A stretch of DNA of 64,000 nucleotides from Paramacrobiotus metropolitanus (taxonomy: Eukaryota; Tardigrada; Eutardigrada; Parachela; Macrobiotidae), in the NCBI RefSeq assembly GCF_019649055.1, contig NW_026570222.1, positions 2,046,001 through 2,110,000 of the forward strand, in the 5' to 3' direction. Every line of letters begins with the position of its first letter. The stretch's first letter is position 1. Positions 5,248-45,100 of this stretch are shown here, one piece after another. The translations under genes and the position numbers were made by a program. The notes beneath the pieces are model-generated. The model saw only the letters and a program-made list of their open reading frames with translations, had not been told where the DNA came from and searched no databases.

Positions 5248-8200
5248 TCTAGAGTACCTACGTTCGCAGTTATCACAAGCTTGCAACAATTAGAAATAAT
5301 ACTGAAGTAACTCTTAATTAATTATTTGGTTCCTAAGTAGGTCAGTGGTCAAGACGATGTGCTGCAACAGTTATAGCTGCATGGTTTACATTTAATTTGA
5401 TGCTAATTTCGCTCTTTTTATTGCACTGCAAATGAGCATCCAATATATTGATCAATAAGTGGCATTTGTTTAGGTCAAGCAAAAGGTTTAACATATAATT
5501 TCTCTGGGTAACGGAAAACACACTATAACTTTGTAGCGACAAAAACTATCTACAATTGCAATATATCTATATTTTGTATAACTGGTAAATGGATTGGACA
5601 TCAGAGCCGTAACTGTGAATAGCCTACTCAAGAAGGTGTCTTCAACGAAGTATCGCCATGTTCATGACGCAAGAAATTTCTGTGGCGGTCCACAGCGGTT
5701 GTGTTAAACGTCAAACGTTGTTTTGAAAGCGTAAGATACCATTGCTGGATCGTCTTTCGGTCTAATGGAATATAACGAAACAGTGTGAATTATTCCAGTT
5801 ACTTTTTAGAGTTGCAGTGGGTATCGATTTATGATAGCGAATACACCCAAAAACGTATGTACCGTACTCTGCACAACAATTGCTGCGTACTTTTATTGTA
5901 ATAATTTGGGAAGGACCACCCATGCAACGTACGTACAGACTACAGAGTACTTTTCATTTGAAACAATCGAACGTTTAACATTATATAAGTACAAGTAAGG
6001 TAAGGTTATAAATTATTATTAATTTGCATTTCGTAACATATACACTGAATTCTCTACTGTAATACCTGCCTTAATTTCGGCACATATGACCTTGTAAGTT
6101 TTAAAGTCATAACTGTTCCTACTACAGACTAACAAGGGCGATCAGAATAGCTGGTGCATTTTAAATTTTTTATATCAACACAATAATAATATATAATAAT
6201 TAATATATTCATAAGTGAAAGTGTGTGCGACTGGATATTAGCATCTTCAGAAATTAATTATTATTTTTATGAATGCTTGTGGTCAGTAATTGTGTACTTA
6301 CGGTCCGAAGTACTTAAGTGCATAGTCTGTAAAAACGCTAAAAGCAATATCGCAGTGACAGTTTGCAACAACTGTGCCTGCCTGAGGTTAGTATCGATAA
6401 CTAATTGTTACAGTTTTGCCAGCAGGATGGCCACCGTTTGAAATCTTAAAATTAGACCATCCCAAAAGCCAGCAGTTCATTAGCATTTGTAACGTGGCGA
6501 AAAGCTGCGCCTTATGTATAATGCTTCCCGGTTTGTTATTAAGATCTTTATCGATTTTCCGATCGATAAGACAGCTGCAGGAACGCTTACAGCTGGGATT
6601 ACATGGATATTAGTAAATTCCGGCAGGACTTTTCACGATCCCGACCCGTTAGTTTCGATCGCTGTGCGGCTGTGCCTAGTGCCTACCACAATATATCGTC
6701 GTCGTCCTCGTCTGAGTTCGTTACACAATTGCTGCATCCAGCACATTTTGCTTTCAAAGTATGATTTTTCCATATAGCACTCCCTGTTTTATAATTCCCA
6801 GCTGTATCATTTTGAAAAGCGTCTACAAAGATGACTGACAGACTATGGTTAGCACTGCCAGCTATCAAATGGCAGTTTTTCCTTGATCTCATCAGAACTG
6901 ATGTTAACCTTTCGCACTACAAACGTTTATATAAACAACATCCATAACGTATAAATGGCGCATTATCGCAACCAGGGGGTTTCTTGATTACTGGTGGCAG
7001 ATGCGGCGACTGTACAAAGCATGGTAGTCTATGCTGCACGTACTACTGACCATAAAAATTACTACCTAGTGTAAATCCTACTTCCGGTTGGAAGATTTTT
7101 GTTGCTACAAATACAATCATCGGATTTAAAAATAAATTTCTCTATATAATTGTTGCTCAATAGTTCCGGTTATCGTTGGCTGGTCGAAGTAAATTGTCTC
7201 GAACCAGCTTTTATCAAAGCAAACTCACGTTCGTCCACTTCAGAAATAGAACAGAAAAGTACAGATTCCCATTTCCCAATGCGAACAATTTGCACAAAAT
7301 TCGTGTTGCATGCTCCAGCTAGGTTCTGTTAACTGTTAGGAGGAATAAAAGCCTCGGTTTGCTGCTGATTGTTGAGACGTGAATATAAGGTTATCATTAC
7401 CAATTCCCATTTGAATAAACGATAATAATCCATTATACGTAACCCGATCTAAAGCATGTGCTTATACGGATTACTTGTGAACTGACTTTTGTTGTTGTAC
7501 TGTTTTGATAATCACTGGAAAGCTACGGAAACGTGTGATCATGACATAATGAAGATTCGAAAACGCACAAACATTTTGCGAATGAGCAGCTAAACACGTT
7601 TAATGGTTCACATATGCCTTACCTAAAAATGGGCTTATCGAAATAATTGTTTGATATTTTTTCCATAAAATCAAGATATAATTTGAATACACCTTTATGC
7701 TAATCGATTTAATCTCAGGTATCGGCACATAGTCTACGCCTTATGCACAGGACGCTGGAATAGCTGCACAAATAAAAATATTGAATGAACGTACCTTTTA
7801 TCTAATGTAGTAAACCATTCGTTACCTCCCAGCGCCATGAAGTACATGGATGTACCTTGCAGAATAACCGCATTTGGTACAACGCCGGAACGGTGTTCAG
7901 TTTTTCCTTAACCATCAGGCTTAAATTTGGTTTTGGTTCGGGAAATGCCGAAGACAATCAAAGCCATAAAAATATAATCCGAATTTCTTCTTCGATTATT
8001 TTTTGAGTGATATCATTTAGCTGACAAGGTATGATAATTTTTCTGGATTAACTGACCGACAGCGATGTCGTACGGTTGTCAAAATAATTATCAGATCGCG
8101 AGATTGCAAATATTCTTCAACTTCCATAATTTTTCTTTTAAACGCGCAGGAGATAATCATTCGCAGGCAATGTCAGGTATAAATATTTCCGTATAGCATA

Positions 8201-29824: not shown

Positions 29825-30846
29825 AGAGTGTACTGAAATATTGCACTATTTCTTTGGTGTGGCCAGCTATCAAAATCTTTAATCCAACGGAGACGTGACA
29901 ATTAAACATAAGAACAATTAGGTATTGAATTAATATTGTCAGATGGGCTAAGGAGAATCCGTGTATGACAAAGTAATGGAGAATATGCGATGTAAAATGC
30001 AAATATTTACTTTTGCAAAACGACAACTTCAAAAATGTACGGAGCGAACGAAAACTCTCAAGCAAGCCTTCCCTTGGACGTGACATCAATCCTATTGTTA
30101 CAAATTTTATGAACTACACCCTGCTTAGCCCATTCACAGTCGCCAAATGAATGAATCATTCACTAAACCTGGGCGCTACGGCTTTGGTCTGCTCCGCCGT
30201 ACTATTGCGCCAATGCCGTAGAGTGGCCTGACGTGTCCGTTCGACTGTAATCGTAATCTATAATCGTCTTCGTTGTAAGCGGTAGGCAGCATAGCACTAT
30301 ATGTAGCAGTCACACCAGTCTGTATTCCCGTCAACTAGGCCATCCAATCTTTTGTTTGTGTTGTTCTTTATTATTGAATATTGATAACCATCGGCTCATG
30401 ATATCATTGATATGTCGTGCATTTTTTATAATTCTTGTCACATGCTTAAGGTTTTTCTTATCTTGAGCGATTTCATAAAAAGCGACTAGATCGGGATAAT
30501 CTTACTTTCAGCCATCTGTGTGTATTACTGGATAGACGACAACGGCCATTTACTGACTACCGTTTATCGAGAAGATCTGAATTTGTGTTCTTTTATCAGA
30601 CTCTTCAACAGCAGAAAAACTTTGAGTTTTTGTGGATCTTTTTCCAAGAATATTAAAATCTGTGTTCGGGCATACTTTATTTATGCAACATTGTGGATTT
30701 TTATCGCTCCCATGAAATATGTAGTCGTGGAGTCCAACTCCAGACCATCACGTACCGTTCTTCTGTCGTCCAATGCCCATCTTGTGGAGGAGCCCGCTTC
30801 CCAATGGATCCTACAGGATAGCTCACCGTCGGAGAAATCTTGGGCC

Positions 30847-33161
30847 ATGGGCCACGCGGGGATGCAATGCATTCGCATATGCTTTGTCTTGCTAAACATC
30901 CTGGTGACGCTGGGTAGTTGTGGAGCGTTGGGATTAGGGATCTGGCTGCATGTGCATACTGGAGGATATGCGCGCGTGGTGTATCAGTATGCCTTCTTCT
31001 CGGCAGCCATTTTTCTCATCAGCATGGGCTGCATTGGAATTTTTGTTTGTATTATGGGTTGTTGTGGAGCGTGGCTGATCAATCGGTGTTTGCTGTTAAC
31101 GGTGAGATTCCGCTGCAGCGCACTGCTGGTGTATTTTCAGCTGTATTTTAATTCGAAATGGAATTGATTCAGATTTTAAACCCGACGACCCAACGTAGTG
31201 GATTTGCAGCAAAAGCATAATATTTTGAATTCCCTTATTTTTACTCATTTGTTTTTTGCAGTATTTTATTCTGGTCTTGGTCCTTTTTCTCGTGGAAGTT
31301 GGAGCGGGAATATACCTTTTAATATTTCGAGATACTGTAAGTCCATTTGTGATTGCGGTATCTGTCTGTGTTACTGTTAGATTAGTAATTAATTATATAG
31401 CACAGACATAACATGAGTAATTTTTCCCGAGAAGTAATAACTGACAATTAGAACGAATGTTTTCTAAGGTAGTGCTCTTACGTAAATTCACCACCATCCA
31501 CATGTGCAACAGACGTCCGCCACAGCCCAAAAACTAATTTTGTTGCTGATCGCGTACAAACTAATATAATGATATATCGCACAGACGAAATTTACGGCAT
31601 CTCGCTCAAAATAATATCATGTCAGCCAGAACCTCTCGCGCATTTGCTTTGTTAAATATGCTCTCGAACTGCCGTTCGATTATTTCCAGATTGAAAACTG
31701 CTTGGCATGATTACCCATATTGATCCGTTTACACAACATCAGAGAAAACGTAATTCCGTTTTATTGTAAGACACGATCGCAGGCATAGCCAAGCAGAAAA
31801 TCTAATTACCTATTTCGGTTTGCACTGCCGTAAATCACTAGGAAAGGTTTTATTATACATTTAGCGATCGATGATCGTTATGATGCTGCTGATTTAGATA
31901 CTTGACTATGTTTTATGATTTTTGCTGCTCACCATCAGTTTAACCGATTTTCCACTCCACGATAAACTCGTATACAGTGTTATATATTACTAAGTAATAA
32001 ACCGAAAGCCCGCAAAATCTGGAAGCTTCAAAGCTACTTTATCCGGTAGCCATTAAATGTCAGTCGTACAAATCTATACGATTGCGCTATTTGGATTTTG
32101 CGTTTTGTGTTTTCGAGTATGAGATAATAACAAAAAACGTCTGTCTCACTCAGACTGTCTGTAACAGCGCAGATACATAAAATTAATAACATAAATACGA
32201 GGGTCACTCAAGGAGTTTTTGACGATTTCTAAAACTTGTTGAGCGAGCCTCGTATTTGGCAGTAAGATTTTAGTTTAACAAATTATTAAGTGAGAAAATA
32301 CTTATTGTCAGCTGTTTATGATCAATAAAAGGGTTTTTTTAGCTCACGGATAACGTTCGATACGAACTGCGTTTAAGTTTGCGGACCAACTACTTGCCCC
32401 ACTCTAGTCTGTCCACTGCATGGGACACCATACAGCGTACATTCGGTTGCTGCGGTGTGGACAATCAAGCTGACTGGCATTTCATTGCCGCATGGCCGGA
32501 ACTAGCTATTGCCCCGGATTCCTGCTGCATACCGGAAGCTCGAAATTTGCCTAATTGTGGGAAATCACTTAACTACAACCTAATTTATCCACGCGGGTGT
32601 TTCGAAGTTATACGTGATTATGCCACGAGGAACATGTACATTTTTGCCATTGCGGCTGTATGTTTAGCCTTTGTTCAGGTAAGGCAGCGAATATGATCAT
32701 TGGCGAAACTACTTAAAAGTTTGTTTGCAGTAATCTTGTTTATTTATCTTGCTTTTCTTGCTGCATTACTTGTGTAATATACTGTGCAGCTTTCACCATG
32801 TTTATTACTAGTGGCTCATATTACGGTTGCTCTGCCATCAGCTGTTTTGTGAAGATCGGAGCACGATACGCATGATCGTATTATGGATATCCTACCATTA
32901 TTTGCTTAAAACCGTACTCCATTAAGTAATTGTTTTTCACTGCTATTGCCGTTGCAGTTTAAAGATTACAGAAGTTGTCGTGCATCTTCTTGGATTATTA
33001 TTTATTCTTTGCAGCTTTTTGGTTTGGTATCAGCTATGGTGCTATTTTGTGGTGGTCATCTGGCTGAACACAGAAAGCTGATAGTCAGGACCGAAGAACC
33101 GGAAGTCGTTGAAGTTGTCCAAACTGAACCGAAACCAAAGTACGTGGAGACTAATCTCTGA
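30847..33161 (+). CDS. Tetraspanin (six-cysteine large loop)
   Basis: Exons 30847-31101, 31262-31336, 32343-32678 and 33015-33161 encode 270 residues. Four membrane segments are visible: about 8-35 (FVLLNILVTLGSCGALGLGI), 50-75, 82-107 (YFILVLVLFLVEVGAGIYLL) and the segment near the last exon junction. The large loop holds FGCCGV, PDSCC, NCGK and RGCFE, the usual CCG and PxxCC pattern with six cysteines. Tetraspanins organise membrane-protein assemblies at the surface or in endosomes. The start is at ATG 30847 because the context GCCATGG is strong and MGHAGMQCIRICF resembles a normal tetraspanin N-terminus. The in-frame ATG at 30712 would add 45 residues (315 in total). The tail is acidic, with EEPEVVEVV. 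Subfamily not assigned. Confidence 0.92.
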
Positions 33162-38267: not shown

Positions 38268-39032
38268 GAAGAGCGTTGGGTGTGCTTATCTGGGCGAGGT
38301 TCTTCTTAAAGTTCATCCAGACTTGATCTTACAATGTACTTTTTAAAAATGTTTTTTCACGAATCTGAGTAATTAACGGTGTTCACTTTTATTTGTATAC
38401 GTCGTTTACGGTTCGCGCAAAATGCATTTAATCATTTAACAGGAAATATTACAACTTTCATTTGTCTCGGTTTCAGCTTTCGGAAGAATGCTTTCATTAT
38501 GGCCATTTTACAACATCGAATCCTTAACAATTCAGACAACAGAAGGTTTATAACAAGATAAAACTCTAATTTACAGTGCGGCTGAGTGCAGAATACAGTG
38601 TTATCAGAATCTATCTCGCAATATACGAAAACAAAAGTAAACACAACTGAAAACAGCTGCAAAAGCATTTCAACTCAACAAAAGGAAAAAATCAACGGAA
38701 GATAAAACTGCTCTAAAACTTTAACCAAGCATAATAGTAGATATCTGTGAACACGAACAATAATAACCAATAGCATCTGTGACGCACAACGGCAAAACAT
38801 CCGCAACTTTGTATAAAGACATCTGTTTGGTGGCAGAGGGAACGGCTCTGCTGAGAAGACCAATGTGGCATCTTTGCACAACAAATAACCCAAAGCAGGG
38901 CAACAATAGGAACTTGAACAAAAAATGGAGCATTCATACGGCCAGATCGGAAATGTGTTGCACCGGAAGTATGATCACTGTCCGACGGTTTCCGGACACG
39001 GAAACCGAAAGTTGCCCGCAAGAAATTTTACA

Positions 39033-39123
39033 TCAATCCCGCCATCCAGTAGCCTTTGGTCCGAACTTGTACACCAACCGGCGCCCAATCACCGGCAGAA
39101 GGATTTGGCTTTTGTAATAATAT
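39033..39123 (-). other. ETS gene alternative terminal exon B (distal)
   Basis: This exon completes the ETS domain in the canonical way: the split arginine codon, then [20 protein letters not shown], and a stop after GWRD. The acceptor is a TTGTTAG/A site. It lies 387 bases beyond exon A and is used instead of it, since exon A ends in its own stop with no donor. Confidence 0.85.
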
Positions 39124-42100
39124 CTAACAACCAGTATGGTTTGTGAATATGGTGTCGCATTTAGGTACTTCAAAGCGAAGCGTGTTAGACCTAATATTAT
39201 CCTGGAGAAGCAGCGCACAATTCACATCACGAGCACGATTCAGATTTACTAAGCGATAATAGATATCATCAAGATACTCGTATAAAAAGAGTCACGAAGT
39301 TTTAAATGCCGTAAACATTCCCACACCGCGAAAGAGTGAAGCAGAAGAAAAGGAAAAAGCATCAAATCCACCATAGCCTTGACATGCACAATGCAAGACA
39401 ATTGCATACTGACGTTGTTCGATACACCCATGTTACACAGTGGTCATTATGACCTTAAAAATGCTACACAAAGAAGAAGAACAGGGAAACCCACCATTAT
39501 CGCAAATTAGTTACTCTGGATCATGCCAGCCTGTTGCCTTCGGCCCGAACTTATAAACCAATTTCTTTGGATATCGGCCATTTTTCGGAACCGGTTGCAG
39601 AATCTCACTACCATAGTAGGTCCTAAATAGAAGTGAAAAACGACATGCAAGTAAGGTATCGTGCACACCAGTAATGCCATAGGAGAGAAAAAACCCCATC
39701 ACCGAAATTCTTTTACTTTTTAGTCAGTGAGCCCATAACCGAGAAAAGTGCAACTTGCGCTGCCGATTGAGCGCATCAAAGTTATGCATCTCACGTTAAG
39801 AAAGCTCCAAAAGGTGTTAAGACAAGGTACACAACAAAGATGCTGTCAAATTTTACGTCACAAAATTTTGCTGTTAATTACAAGGGACGATTACATGTCA
39901 GAAGCTCCGCAGAGCAAGCCATTTGAGAATTACATTTTCCACAATGGTCACAATAGTACAACGCCCATACCTCATCGCCCGGCTCAGCTTTTCGTACGTC
40001 ATGCGCGGGTTGCACTTTTTGCTTCCCCACATTTTCGCGACCGCCTCCGATTCTACGAACCGGAAAACGCCTTCCTCCTTGTTCTCCCATTTCACAATCT
40101 TAGGATTGAATTTTGTGCTTTTTAAAAGGTCCCGGATGAATTCCCAAAGATGGTTACCGCGTGTGCCTACAGGAGCATCTCAAGTTCAGTGTTAAGTACA
40201 CAGACATGGGACATCGTTAACAACAAACCAAGGGTGGAATTACCATGCTTGCTACGCGTGCTTTTCCCACTCTTCTCCTTCCCATTCTTTTGGATTTTTC
40301 CCCGGGCATTCAACCGCGCTTCCGTCCCTACGCTCGCCCATTCTAAAAAAGAATTACTGATATTACAGTACTAGTACACCACTGGGGAAACTGCTTACCG
40401 GTGCATATCGGATACAGCGATACATACTTCTATCACAAACATCAATGAGAATATGATTATGGTTCACTTATTCGTTTGCCAAAAATTCCACGATTACAAC
40501 TTTCCATGAAATTAATTTGTTTATTACTCTAAAATATGAAGTATTGTAATTATCCTGTTTCGTACCAACGGGAGAAGCCGAAGTATAGCTGCAGGCCCGT
40601 CCGCCAATATCGGTATACACGGACTGGTTGGAACTGCTACGGCTACTGTCCACGTCGTCGAGATCTAGAAATGGCATATTTTTTTAAATTGCTAATACGT
40701 ATCATCAAGCTTCAGAATACGTTTGCTTATTTTCGATGATTTAAAGCACTCGCACCTGTCTTATAATCCACACCATCACTCGTTGGACTGGCCGACGGGC
40801 AGTAGCTTTGAGCAATGGCTGCTGGTGGACCAGGCATGAATTGTTGTTGGCAACTTCCATACATATTAGTAGCCATATTTAAGCTATCCAACGTGACTAT
40901 ATCGTCAAACTCATCGCTAGTGTAACTTTCTTGAATGTAATCCGACAAATCCTGGTCGATAATACCTGATAAAAAAAGAACGCAAAATAAGGAAACCCAT
41001 GTCCACCCGGCAGACGTCTTGCTGATTTGCGGATGTCCGTTCATTGCTTATTGCTACTGCAATGTTCAGCAAAGAAAGACCCACTCTTTACCATTCTGAG
41101 ATCCATTTAGAGCTGAAGAGAGGAACATGCCCGTCTCGAAATGAATGTCCACAGGTTCAGATTTGGGCGTAAGCACGGGCCCAGGGAACTGAACCGACTC
41201 TGTGAATGCAGACACTCACTTAAATGAGGACAACTAGCAGTACTCACTAACATTTATGATTAATTAAAGCCGTGAAACGGTAAAAAGTATACCACATTTA
41301 TGCGTAAAGAAATAATTAGAAGTGTACAGACAGAATAAGAAAGGAAACATACGCTTAGCCAGAATCCGTGACAGGGCGCTATGCCACATCAGACCGTTAA
41401 TTGGATCCTTCTCCAGGAAAGAAATTGAATTCATTTGAATTAATATGGAGCCGGGGACACCGATAAACGGCCGCAGGTCCACCTGGTCCGGATTCATTCC
41501 TTTGTCCTCTGCCACAGACCGAAAAAAGCCTATGCAGTCCGTCGGCGTCCAGTTAACCGGATGCTGGAAAGGCCAGCCAGAGTAGTCGGCGCTTGCAGCG
41601 ACCGAGGTATCTGCAATTTGGTTAAACATGGTGTGCGGGCACGAGAAGCAAATCAAACCATTTAAATGAGTCAGCACAAAATATTATTTCTTCAGAAATA
41701 GGACCGTTTCAGGAAAAACTGTCCGATAAGTAAGAACGATTTACTGCTGTAAACGTTGGGAGAAATTACAGAAACACTGCAGGAACATTACAACAATACC
41801 CGCAATGTTAGCTGCGTGGCAAATTCAGGATTTCATCATAAAAAGAAATTTAATGCGTTTACATTCGGTTACTTAACTTATGTATCGTACGTTCTGTACC
41901 TCATTAGTAATTACCTTACAACGTTAGCGTTTACGAAGTTATTTACTCATTGTCAATAATGTTCTGAATAGTCGGGGAACTGTCGTTATACATAAAGCGC
42001 TAAAGTCGTTATACATACAATACAAAGTATACATTTTTCACTAACCATTCAATGTCCCTGAATACGGCATCCCTTGATGGGCATATGCACGGGAGTTCTG

Positions 42101-45100
42101 CGTCGGAGACAATGCGCACTGTGTTAATCCAGACGGAGGCGCACTGCGAGAAATCATCCCGTTGAAGCTGCTATTGTGGACCGATGCTGCATATGGAACG
42201 CTAGAAGGAGGGGCCATCGAGACCGGGTTGGCCTGTCCAATCCACTGATCCAAGCGCACGGATGGCTTTCCCATATCCTGCCAGAGGTGGCTGGGATTCG
42301 TGCGTGCGTACATGTCGACAACGGGCAGTTGATTCTGCATCGCTGGTCTGAGTCCACGCTGCATTTTTGTATCTTTTTGATTAGCCTAAAAGAGATAAAA
42401 AAAAAATCCACTACGACAAGCTAGGATAGCGGTTGGTCATTACTTCGGTATATAATATAAATATGGGAAATTACTAATGCATAGCACAATAGAATTAAAA
42501 GGTTGTTATTAATGGTGCTGTGTTAGATTGCCACCAGTTATGACCTTACGACAGTCTGCGAGTGCGTAAAAACTTAATAACAAACAAATCGCTGGGACTA
42601 AACGAGAACCGCCTTCCCAACCAGAAACTTTTTTGTGTCAGTAGTATGAACATAAACTACCTGGCTCAGTATTCAAAAGGTTACAGTTTCCGATGTTGCA
42701 AAATATAACAGCCGAAATTTTTACAAAAGGTAAAAAAACGGTACTCTCTCCAAACGCGTAAACCTACTACTGTTGAGTGAATTAACCGCAAGTAAGTACG
42801 GTAAGATAATGCAAAGATGCGGTGTAGCTAAACCTGCGTCACACAGACACCCAGACGCCGATGCATGTGCAATCATAGAAAAAGAGAAAAAAATCACAAC
42901 AGTTCTCATGCATTCTTATCTTTGACAGATCAGAGGGCAGGCTGCCCAGTCCCATTGGGCACGATCTTCAGCGATCATAATCAACTGCACCGGCGTCAAA
43001 CTCGAACACACAGGACGTACGTCTGCGTGTCTTCGCTGCAGCCAATGCACGTACGTGGTGATAAAATTGTATGCAAATTGCAAACATGACTACCGGAGAA
43101 TTCTCCTGTAAATCCACATGATTTCTTATTATTAACAGAAACGACCTTGACGCTGCATACTTTTTGTGGCATTTTGATGCATCTTATGCAACACTTGGAC
43201 CACAGCATCCGAAAAACACCGATCGAATCTGCTCGGAACAATGGCACGGATAGAGCGAGCACCTGTCATGATCAGCGCCGCAGGCGTGGTAGTTTATCGG
43301 CAAAATCGCCATTGATTGCCCACTCGGTGTTACGTAGTCAAAATGGCAGAAAAACTGACAGTAAATCATTAACTGGCTGCGATCCGAACTCCAAACAATT
43401 TATGCCTGCCTGCATTAATTACTACTGCCGGATCATTTCAAAACAATTTTGACTCCAAATAGTCAAAGCAGCTAGTCGTAAACCTGGATCTTATTGACAG
43501 TCAGTCGCCAAAACATTCGCTTCAAGCTCGCCCCCTTGCAAAACTCCCACTCAAAATTCTGGCAGTTTACCGACTACTACGCCCTACAGAGTCCAGACTT
43601 CGCCCTGATTAGCCGGCATCGACCGACATATGGAAGAGCAGTAATTCTCCCTACGGTGTACCGGCTGTGGTAATGACTATGGGTTAGCAAATGCAATTTT
43701 TATGTAGTAGAGTAGATGATTCGCACACACACGTAGCGGCCGTTTTTGCCCGACAACAGTTTGTACAGCAACAACAAGCTTATACAACAACAACAACAAC
43801 TAATGGCACATCTTCCGTATATTGCACTTATTGTTAATTTACACATGAAATCATAATTATCTTTCTATTGCAATCTGGATCAAGCAGAGAAAAACACAAT
43901 TTGTCCACAGTTTACTTTGTCTAGAGCTTCCAAACGGTTGAACGATAAAGACTGTTTTAAGCAATTATGTACCGTCAAACAAGGGATGCTAAAAGCTCCA
44001 AATTAAACAATTCGCACCCTATGTCTGCATTCACTGATGTTCTTGTGAAACTCTCACACAGATTATAATGTCTAAGTGCCGACTACAAAGAAACTGCATT
44101 ACCTACTTATCACTGCAGCATTTTCTTGATTGCTCACTGCTGGTAAGGAAATTTAATTTCACTAATTTAGGTAAACAGTATTTCTGGTTTTAAAAATAGC
44201 ATTTCGTGCTAAAATTATCTCACTCCCTTATTCATAGGGTACAGTCGTCTACAAATCTACGATCGGCGGCCAGTGAGTGATAAAAAATCCAAACATCGCA
44301 CTTGACCTTCCCAGAATGAACTCACTAGAAAATTTCTAGACCAGATTAAACTGAGCAAAATTGTCCATCTCAGCAACATTTTGCTCAAAATTTAGTGCAT
44401 AAACTATTTTCTAGTACACTCTGCATATTACCGGCGAAATCGGATGCATTACACCGGCAAAAAAATGTAAAGTGCATTCACACTGACCAAGCCGTAGCGT
44501 ACAGATACGGTTTGTTTTGACTCCGGTACAGTGCGAACTGGTTTTTATAAACCACGCGCGGCACTTCATTGTTGATATAGGCAACAATCCTGCATCAATA
44601 TATTCAACCAGGTAGTGGTAACCCGTATCGTTTCCGCATACTGTACTTAACTCTTAGGAACAGCACTTCGGTCAAGATTCTGCTTACCCTAGTTTCCAAA
44701 AAGCCCGGATTAAAAAAACCGCACAAGTACTGAAAATTCAGCGATAACGCTTTTTGTGGACACTAATGAATAGAAAAGTCAACTCTGGCATTGGCAATAT
44801 ATGCGATAATCAAGGCTGGACTTTATAATTAAGCGTACGGGATTTCAGTTACAGGTTCACACACCATAGACGAAATAAATTTTCATAATCGAAGAAGAAA
44901 CTGAAAGCGCGGCATGATCAAGCTGGATCGCGTCGAACCGTCACAAACGCATCCCGTTCGCTGACAGAAACAGATGGTTATCTCACCGGTCATTATTGTG
45001 CCGGTGTGCCCGGTGCGGAAAATAATCGTGCAACCACTTCTCATTTCAAAACTTGTTACTTTCTATCTTAGTGTTATAAATCGCTCTATGACTTTTTAAG

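Follow-up and report, generated by a model that had tools for sequence, protein, structure and literature searches.

ETS transcription factors share nearly one GGA(A/T) core, and how each of them comes to act on its own targets has long been asked. That splicing can alter what a DNA-binding domain recognises is described for FOXP1, in which the choice between exons 18 and 18b (FOXP1-ES; Gabut et al. 2011, as given in a review, PMC11701043) shifts the preference from the motif GTAAACAA to CGATACAA or motifs close to it. For ELF5, an ETS gene, the isoforms described come from alternative promoters and from splicing without the Pointed domain (PMC4704400).

The residues through which an ETS domain reads its site have been described in Etv1, Fev and PU.1. 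In Etv1 and Fev, Tyr395 is the acceptor of a hydrogen bond from the GGA adenine and can also contact the bases that follow, and Tyr396 and Tyr397 bind the backbone; Etv1 mutants of either of the latter two bind more than 1000-fold worse (PMC4447949). The Etv1 mutant Tyr395Phe is reported with an unchanged Kd, and mutation of Etv1 Lys404 abolished binding (PMC4447949). Tyr395 is termed invariant in that work (PMC4447949), and PU.1 has Asn there (PMC6237740). This residue, Asn236 of PU.1, makes water-mediated contacts with the core. The mutant N236Y reportedly relaxed core position 3 from A to A/T and, like a chimera of the whole H3, lost more than 50-fold in affinity, and PU.1 carrying the Ets-1 wing kept its affinity within five-fold (PMC6237740). 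The flanking positions at which PU.1 and Ets-1 are described as differing in selectivity sit near the wing, S3 and the loop (PMC6237740).

Here we investigate an ETS gene of the tardigrade Paramacrobiotus metropolitanus for which two alternative ends of the DNA-binding domain are predicted. The window analysed is a stretch of 64,000 nucleotides (assembly GCF_019649055.1, contig NW_026570222.1, positions 2,046,001 to 2,110,000), and positions below are counted from its first letter. The gene lies on the minus strand from 42364 to 39033 and has eight inferred coding exons, the limits of which follow from the open frame and the splice sites, with GT-AG introns and a single joined frame. Exon 1 (42046..42364) starts at the first ATG, and its open frame and splice sites are in frame with the later exons; there is an acceptor-like site immediately upstream of it, so further non-coding exons upstream are possible. 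Exon 2 (41353..41610) contains a PNT-like region, with a SAM_PNT match of 16.1 bits (E 0.011) that is under the cut-off of 24. Exons 3 (41092..41199), 4 (40756..40965) and 5 (40566..40664) were placed by frame and splice sites, as was exon 6 (40244..40342), which encodes a basic region preceding the ETS domain; its residues adjoining the domain align with human EHF. Elsewhere in the window there are two plus-strand open frames, 30490-31167 and 32343-32696, which by eye are tetraspanin-like, with a CCG motif.

Exon 7 (39971..40166, minus strand) covers the ETS domain from its start and breaks off in recognition helix H3, after the second base of the codon for Arg394 (Ets-1 numbering). It ends ...LSRAM followed by AG, at the donor AG/gtatgg. 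From this one donor two terminal exons can be reached in equal phase, and each of them completes the Arg394 codon as Arg. Exon 8A (39511..39622, minus strand; acceptor ...ctatttag) encodes a peptide of 37 residues that begins its domain end with TYYG and stops at TAA. Exon 8B (39033..39123, minus strand; acceptor ...ttgttag) encodes 30 residues with YYYK and a canonical wing, and stops at TGA. The initial annotation had proposed a single donor at 39971, inside the Arg codon, fitting acceptors at 39622 and 39123 in the same phase, and both the coordinates and the phase are as it gave them. Its contrast of TYYG with YYYK, and of a longer loop in A, is likewise found: from the Arg to the F of VYKF there are 26 residues in A and 21 in B, a difference of five, and the other ETS ends of the genome have 21, or 22 on C18 and C10. 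Since each exon has its own stop, A and B exclude one another in the protein, as had been suggested.

Both exons end the same ETS domain. Against Pfam Ets (cut-off 26.9 bits) exon 7 by itself scores 85.2 bits, in a match that extends 7 bases into the intron, and the score rises to 102.1 with A and 113.4 with B, so that both forms pass the cut-off. Both contain the helix H3 arginines 391 and 394 and the backbone tyrosines 396 and 397 (SRAMR followed by (T/Y)YY). In a search of solved structures the top three matches for both forms were EHF, ELF3 and ELF5. Among solved structures, then, the gene appears closest to the ELF3/EHF/ELF5 group and can be called ESE-type, after the name of that subfamily. 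The likeness to ELF3, EHF and ELF5 lies in the ETS domain and, for EHF, also in the stretch preceding it; the N-terminal part of EHF gave no significant match to this protein (-2.1 bits). With the form B domain as query, viral contigs yielded 4 pattern matches, of which none is a relative.

The reading that we favour, and to which we give about an even chance of being right, is that a tandem duplication in this ESE-type gene copied the terminal exon, with which the DNA-binding domain is completed, that the single donor can be joined to the acceptor of A, the nearer, or to that of B, that both splices would occur and be regulated, and that form A would bind DNA with a different preference. The shared intron cuts the domain within the Arg394 codon and leaves the helix with its two GG-reading arginines in the common exon, the last base of Arg394 being supplied by either end. 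Because the intron lies there, duplication of the terminal exon copies exactly what that exon carries: residue 395, the H3/S3 turn and the wing. Form B is an ordinary ETS domain. Form A, with Thr in place of the base-contacting Tyr395, tyrosines 396 and 397 kept and a wing that is longer and more charged, would still bind DNA, with altered preference at bases three and four of the GGA(A/T) core and at the flanks. Both messages might share a 3' end downstream of B. The anatomy and phase of the exon pair, the homology of its members and their constraint at the protein level are shown by the sequence.

The homology was first suggested from a block of 12 residues shared by the two exons, and it is borne out by the comparison of the exons as a whole. 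Over 30 aligned codons, with the five-residue gap and the two extra end residues of A left out, A and B differ at 38 of 90 bases and at 9 of 30 residues. Random substitution would give 21.4 residue differences on average, and 9 or fewer were seen in 0 of 20,000 simulations. Besides its own locus, exon A matched B (E 1.1e-4) and, at two loci on C17, the terminal exon; these 4 were all the matches to it in the genome at E <= 10. Comparison by blastn of the intron upstream of A with that upstream of B found no shared sequence. A partial gene duplication, which would have left another helix exon in the interval from A to B, was considered and rejected, as the window has a single strong match to the helix exon and the next best has an E of 0.30.

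The divergence between A and B is mostly synonymous (pS 0.94, pN 0.25). In the shared 12-residue block there are 7 base differences, all of them synonymous and none a replacement, an outcome that was reached in 0 of 200,000 random draws. Divergence is freer over the first 16 codons (pN 0.43), which could be relaxed constraint or changed function. In the three pairs formed by A, B and the C17 end, pS is 0.94, 0.78 and 0.73; silent sites are near saturation, so the exon duplication is old. Set beside the C17 paralogue, the variable sites of the block comprise 3 changed in A only, 4 at which all three sequences differ, 2 changed in C17 only and 0 changed in B only, polarity being taken from the majority of the three sequences and not from an outgroup. 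All 3 of the A-only changes are silent, which would have a probability of 0.008-0.018 were A neutral. From these comparisons A and B look like old duplicates under protein-level constraint and, because the A-only changes in the block are all silent, exon A itself has probably been so constrained.

A tree of the ends, made from 42 columns, was considered as an arbiter of whether the exon duplication or the duplication that gave the C17 gene came first, and was set aside: the best arrangement, (A,(B,C17)), has a support of 53, and no more than 0.3 log units separate the three arrangements (AU p 0.29-0.70). In this same short-alignment tree the three tardigrade ends stand apart from those of human EHF, ELF3 and ELF5 with a support of 96, so the exon duplication seems, as far as so short an alignment indicates, to postdate the split from the human ends.

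Is exon A then a working end of the domain? Or is it a relic of the tandem duplication, intact in sequence and seldom or never spliced, with B as the sole working end? The latter would agree with the divergence of the first half of A (pN 0.43), which is without Tyr395 and Lys398, and with the C17 paralogue, in which exon A matches a single terminal exon, and that one is B-like. We consider it unlikely, since a neutral exon of such an age should have decayed; at a pS of 0.94 exon A yet has no stop or frameshift, its AG lies precisely at the homologous codon position, and the 12-residue block has changed only silently.

The position of the intron is shared with some of the other ETS loci of the genome. 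As judged from the frames, the C17 paralogue and two ETS loci on C30 have this Arg codon split by a phase-2 intron as well; loci on C45, C2 and C13, for example, read through, with no intron at that codon. Near the intact C17 gene (L020), at a distance of about 44 kb, there is a broken, pseudogene-like copy of it (L021, G000:C17:1155500-1163500, about 5350-6200), in which by eye both ETS exons are frame-disrupted. The two C30 loci (L006, G000:C30:1156495, and L007, G000:C30:1034641) score equally and lie about 122 kb apart. They have 3 differences in 260 bases and an ungapped match across the whole loci at 1638 of 3189 positions, and are likely a local duplication with indels. The ends of L008 (G000:C18) and L018 (G000:C10) read RQYYKKGIM..., with Gln at 395, and are presumably SPDEF-like. 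In the genome assembly, of 169.8 Mb, a tardigrade CAHS protein used as query had 20 matches at E <= 0.001 (best E 3.0e-69, 65% identity), as would be looked for in a tardigrade genome.

At residue 395 the ETS ends readable in the genome have Tyr on C45, C2 (1.53 Mb), C13 and C117, in both C30 loci and in exon B, Gln on C18 and C10, and His on C17. Thr is found there in exon A only. This comparison excludes the pseudogene-like C17 copy, which has a broken frame and by eye has Leu, and a match on C2 (3.04 Mb) that covers profile positions 2-49 only. A further difference concerns the place of Etv1 Lys404, at which A, B and the C17 gene have Pro and the other seven ETS ends compared have Lys, one C30 locus standing for the pair. 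In this species the ESE-type genes are odd in this respect. Because mutation of Lys404 left Etv1 without binding (PMC4447949), what can be inferred from Etv1 is limited here, and the DNA contacts of the A, B and C17 forms may depart from the textbook.

The initial annotation had put the difference between the two forms in the wing and its contacts with the DNA backbone. The wing of A is indeed longer, and it is the more positive one, with 4 K/R against 2 in B. The difference is not one of wing and backbone alone, however, as the swap begins at the place of the base-contacting Tyr395. In Ets-1/Etv1 numbering form B is Tyr395-Tyr396-Tyr397-Lys398 and form A is Thr395-Tyr396-Tyr397-Gly398; the tyrosine that contacts the adenine of GGA is present in B and absent from A. 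Because the first residue swapped is at that place, the case for a changed choice of site is stronger than was first claimed. Form A thus retains the residues that bind the backbone in Etv1 and changes one with a bearing on selectivity and, in an unfavourable context, also on affinity. The loss of the Tyr395 hydroxyl need not matter, since Etv1 Tyr395Phe keeps its Kd; Thr was the residue in neither the Etv1 nor the PU.1 test.

Form A might also bind DNA poorly, because PU.1 N236Y lost more than 50-fold (PMC6237740). It could then be a protein that is made and binds weakly or not at all, diluting form B as a dominant negative in the manner of ERG8, and alteration of both the core-reading residue and the wing would be in keeping with this. 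Such a decoy would require none of what exon A and the shared exon conserve, namely Arg391 and Arg394, Tyr396 and Tyr397, the entire 12-residue block and a wing more positive than that of B, and we regard this explanation as improbable.

The splice sites were scored with a model trained on 10 donors and 10 acceptors taken from the open frames, one of the acceptors being that of a putative 5' UTR. Donor 39971 scores 7.2, at the top of the 10 training donors, itself among them. The acceptor of A scores 3.1 and that of B -1.7, the latter under all 10 of the reference acceptors (-0.9 to 10.7). Since 8 of the 58 AGs in the region outscore the acceptor of A, the model carries little weight, and it gives a hint only that the near exon A would be chosen unless held back and that form B would need regulation. 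An acceptor at 39201 also scores above that of A; it would add 26 in-frame, stop-free codons before B (39124-39201, minus strand). This extension is probably due to chance, because the C17 end joins, by frame, at the place homologous to 39123.

Between A and B, over 387 bases, there is no AATAAA or ATTAAA (0.76 expected, P 0.47 for none), and the sole variant of the poly(A) signal is AGTAAA (39250). In a motif scan the first standard signals past the exon pair are ATTAAA from 38432 and AATAAA from 38393 (38388..38432, minus strand). With no standard signal between the exons, a weak pointer at P 0.47 by chance, messages with A may run through B to a shared 3' end past it, which would be a choice of acceptor and not of two last exons. 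The two may be alternative last exons, as first described, each with its own poly(A) site; equally possible from the sequence is that two acceptors compete ahead of one common 3' end.

The hexamer TGCATG is an RBFOX-type motif. One copy lies just upstream of exon A (39644..39649, minus strand) and another downstream of it, between A and B (39383..39388, minus strand), and these two are the only ones on the gene strand from 38400 to 42600. From the donor to B the gene strand thus has 2 against about 0.27 expected (P 0.03), the motif having been chosen post hoc. There is no enrichment across the whole window (42 found against 45.9 expected), and the counts of YCAY, ACTAAY and TTTTT motifs are unremarkable. 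The pair around exon A is a lead only. A more specific proposal is that one gene has two DNA alphabets: by splicing, Tyr would give way to Thr at the helix residue reading the A of GGA, and the wing would change with it, the rest of the protein staying the same, perhaps under RBFOX-type control through the TGCATG motifs. We put this forward tentatively and lean somewhat against it.

That both exons are used and differ in amount, timing or 3' UTR only, with no useful difference in DNA preference, is very unlikely: the lack of a standard poly(A) signal between A and B (P 0.47 by chance), by which A may carry B as its 3' UTR, the wild-type Kd of Etv1 Tyr395Phe (PMC4447949) and the affinity, within five-fold, of PU.1 with the Ets-1 wing (PMC6237740) would all allow it, but most of the residue differences fall in the turn, in the wing and at the position that contacts bases, and the differences in selectivity between PU.1 and Ets-1 are described as mapping near the wing, S3 and the loop (PMC6237740).

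How does the favoured arrangement, one ETS gene with two regulated domain ends, compare with the systems already described? The initial annotation knew of no ETS factor with such an arrangement, and none appeared among the titles and abstract openings of the open-access papers covered. Several systems share part of it. The isoforms of ELF5, as described, come from alternative promoters and from splicing that removes the Pointed domain, and unlike the tardigrade gene the ETS domain is not rewritten (PMC4704400). ERG8 is likewise a splice form of an ETS gene with a changed DNA-binding end, but one without the domain, where in the tardigrade gene a second intact end would take its place (PMC5404112). 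The COE/EBF genes have, like A and B, a tandem exon duplication inside a conserved transcription-factor motif, but the duplicated exon of vertebrate EBF is described as always included, whereas A and B each bear a stop and are exclusive in the protein (PMC2394523).

The closest working analogue of the A/B pair would appear to be exon 18/18b of FOXP1. In both genes there are two alternative exons for one part of the DNA-binding domain, and either keeps the reading frame. FOXP1 is a forkhead factor in which the switch is described as proven by RNA and binding data; the tardigrade gene encodes an ETS factor, and its two alternative exons, predicted from the sequence, come last and supply the end of the protein. 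If the favoured reading is true, the A/B pair extends this manner of splicing a DNA-binding domain to the ETS family, and the choice of splice could change which genes the factor controls. One domain with two natural ends, differing in a base-reading residue and in the wing and separate for as long as silent sites take to saturate, would then be a ready-made experiment on ETS targeting. The same position that is changed in exon A is where PU.1 (SPI1) has Asn236 and Ets-1 has Tyr395, and in PU.1 it is described as controlling core recognition and hydration (PMC6237740). The difference between PU.1 and Ets-1 is one between separate genes. That between A and B would be between the splice forms of one gene and, if true, a splice-encoded counterpart of the PU.1/Ets-1 split in specificity.
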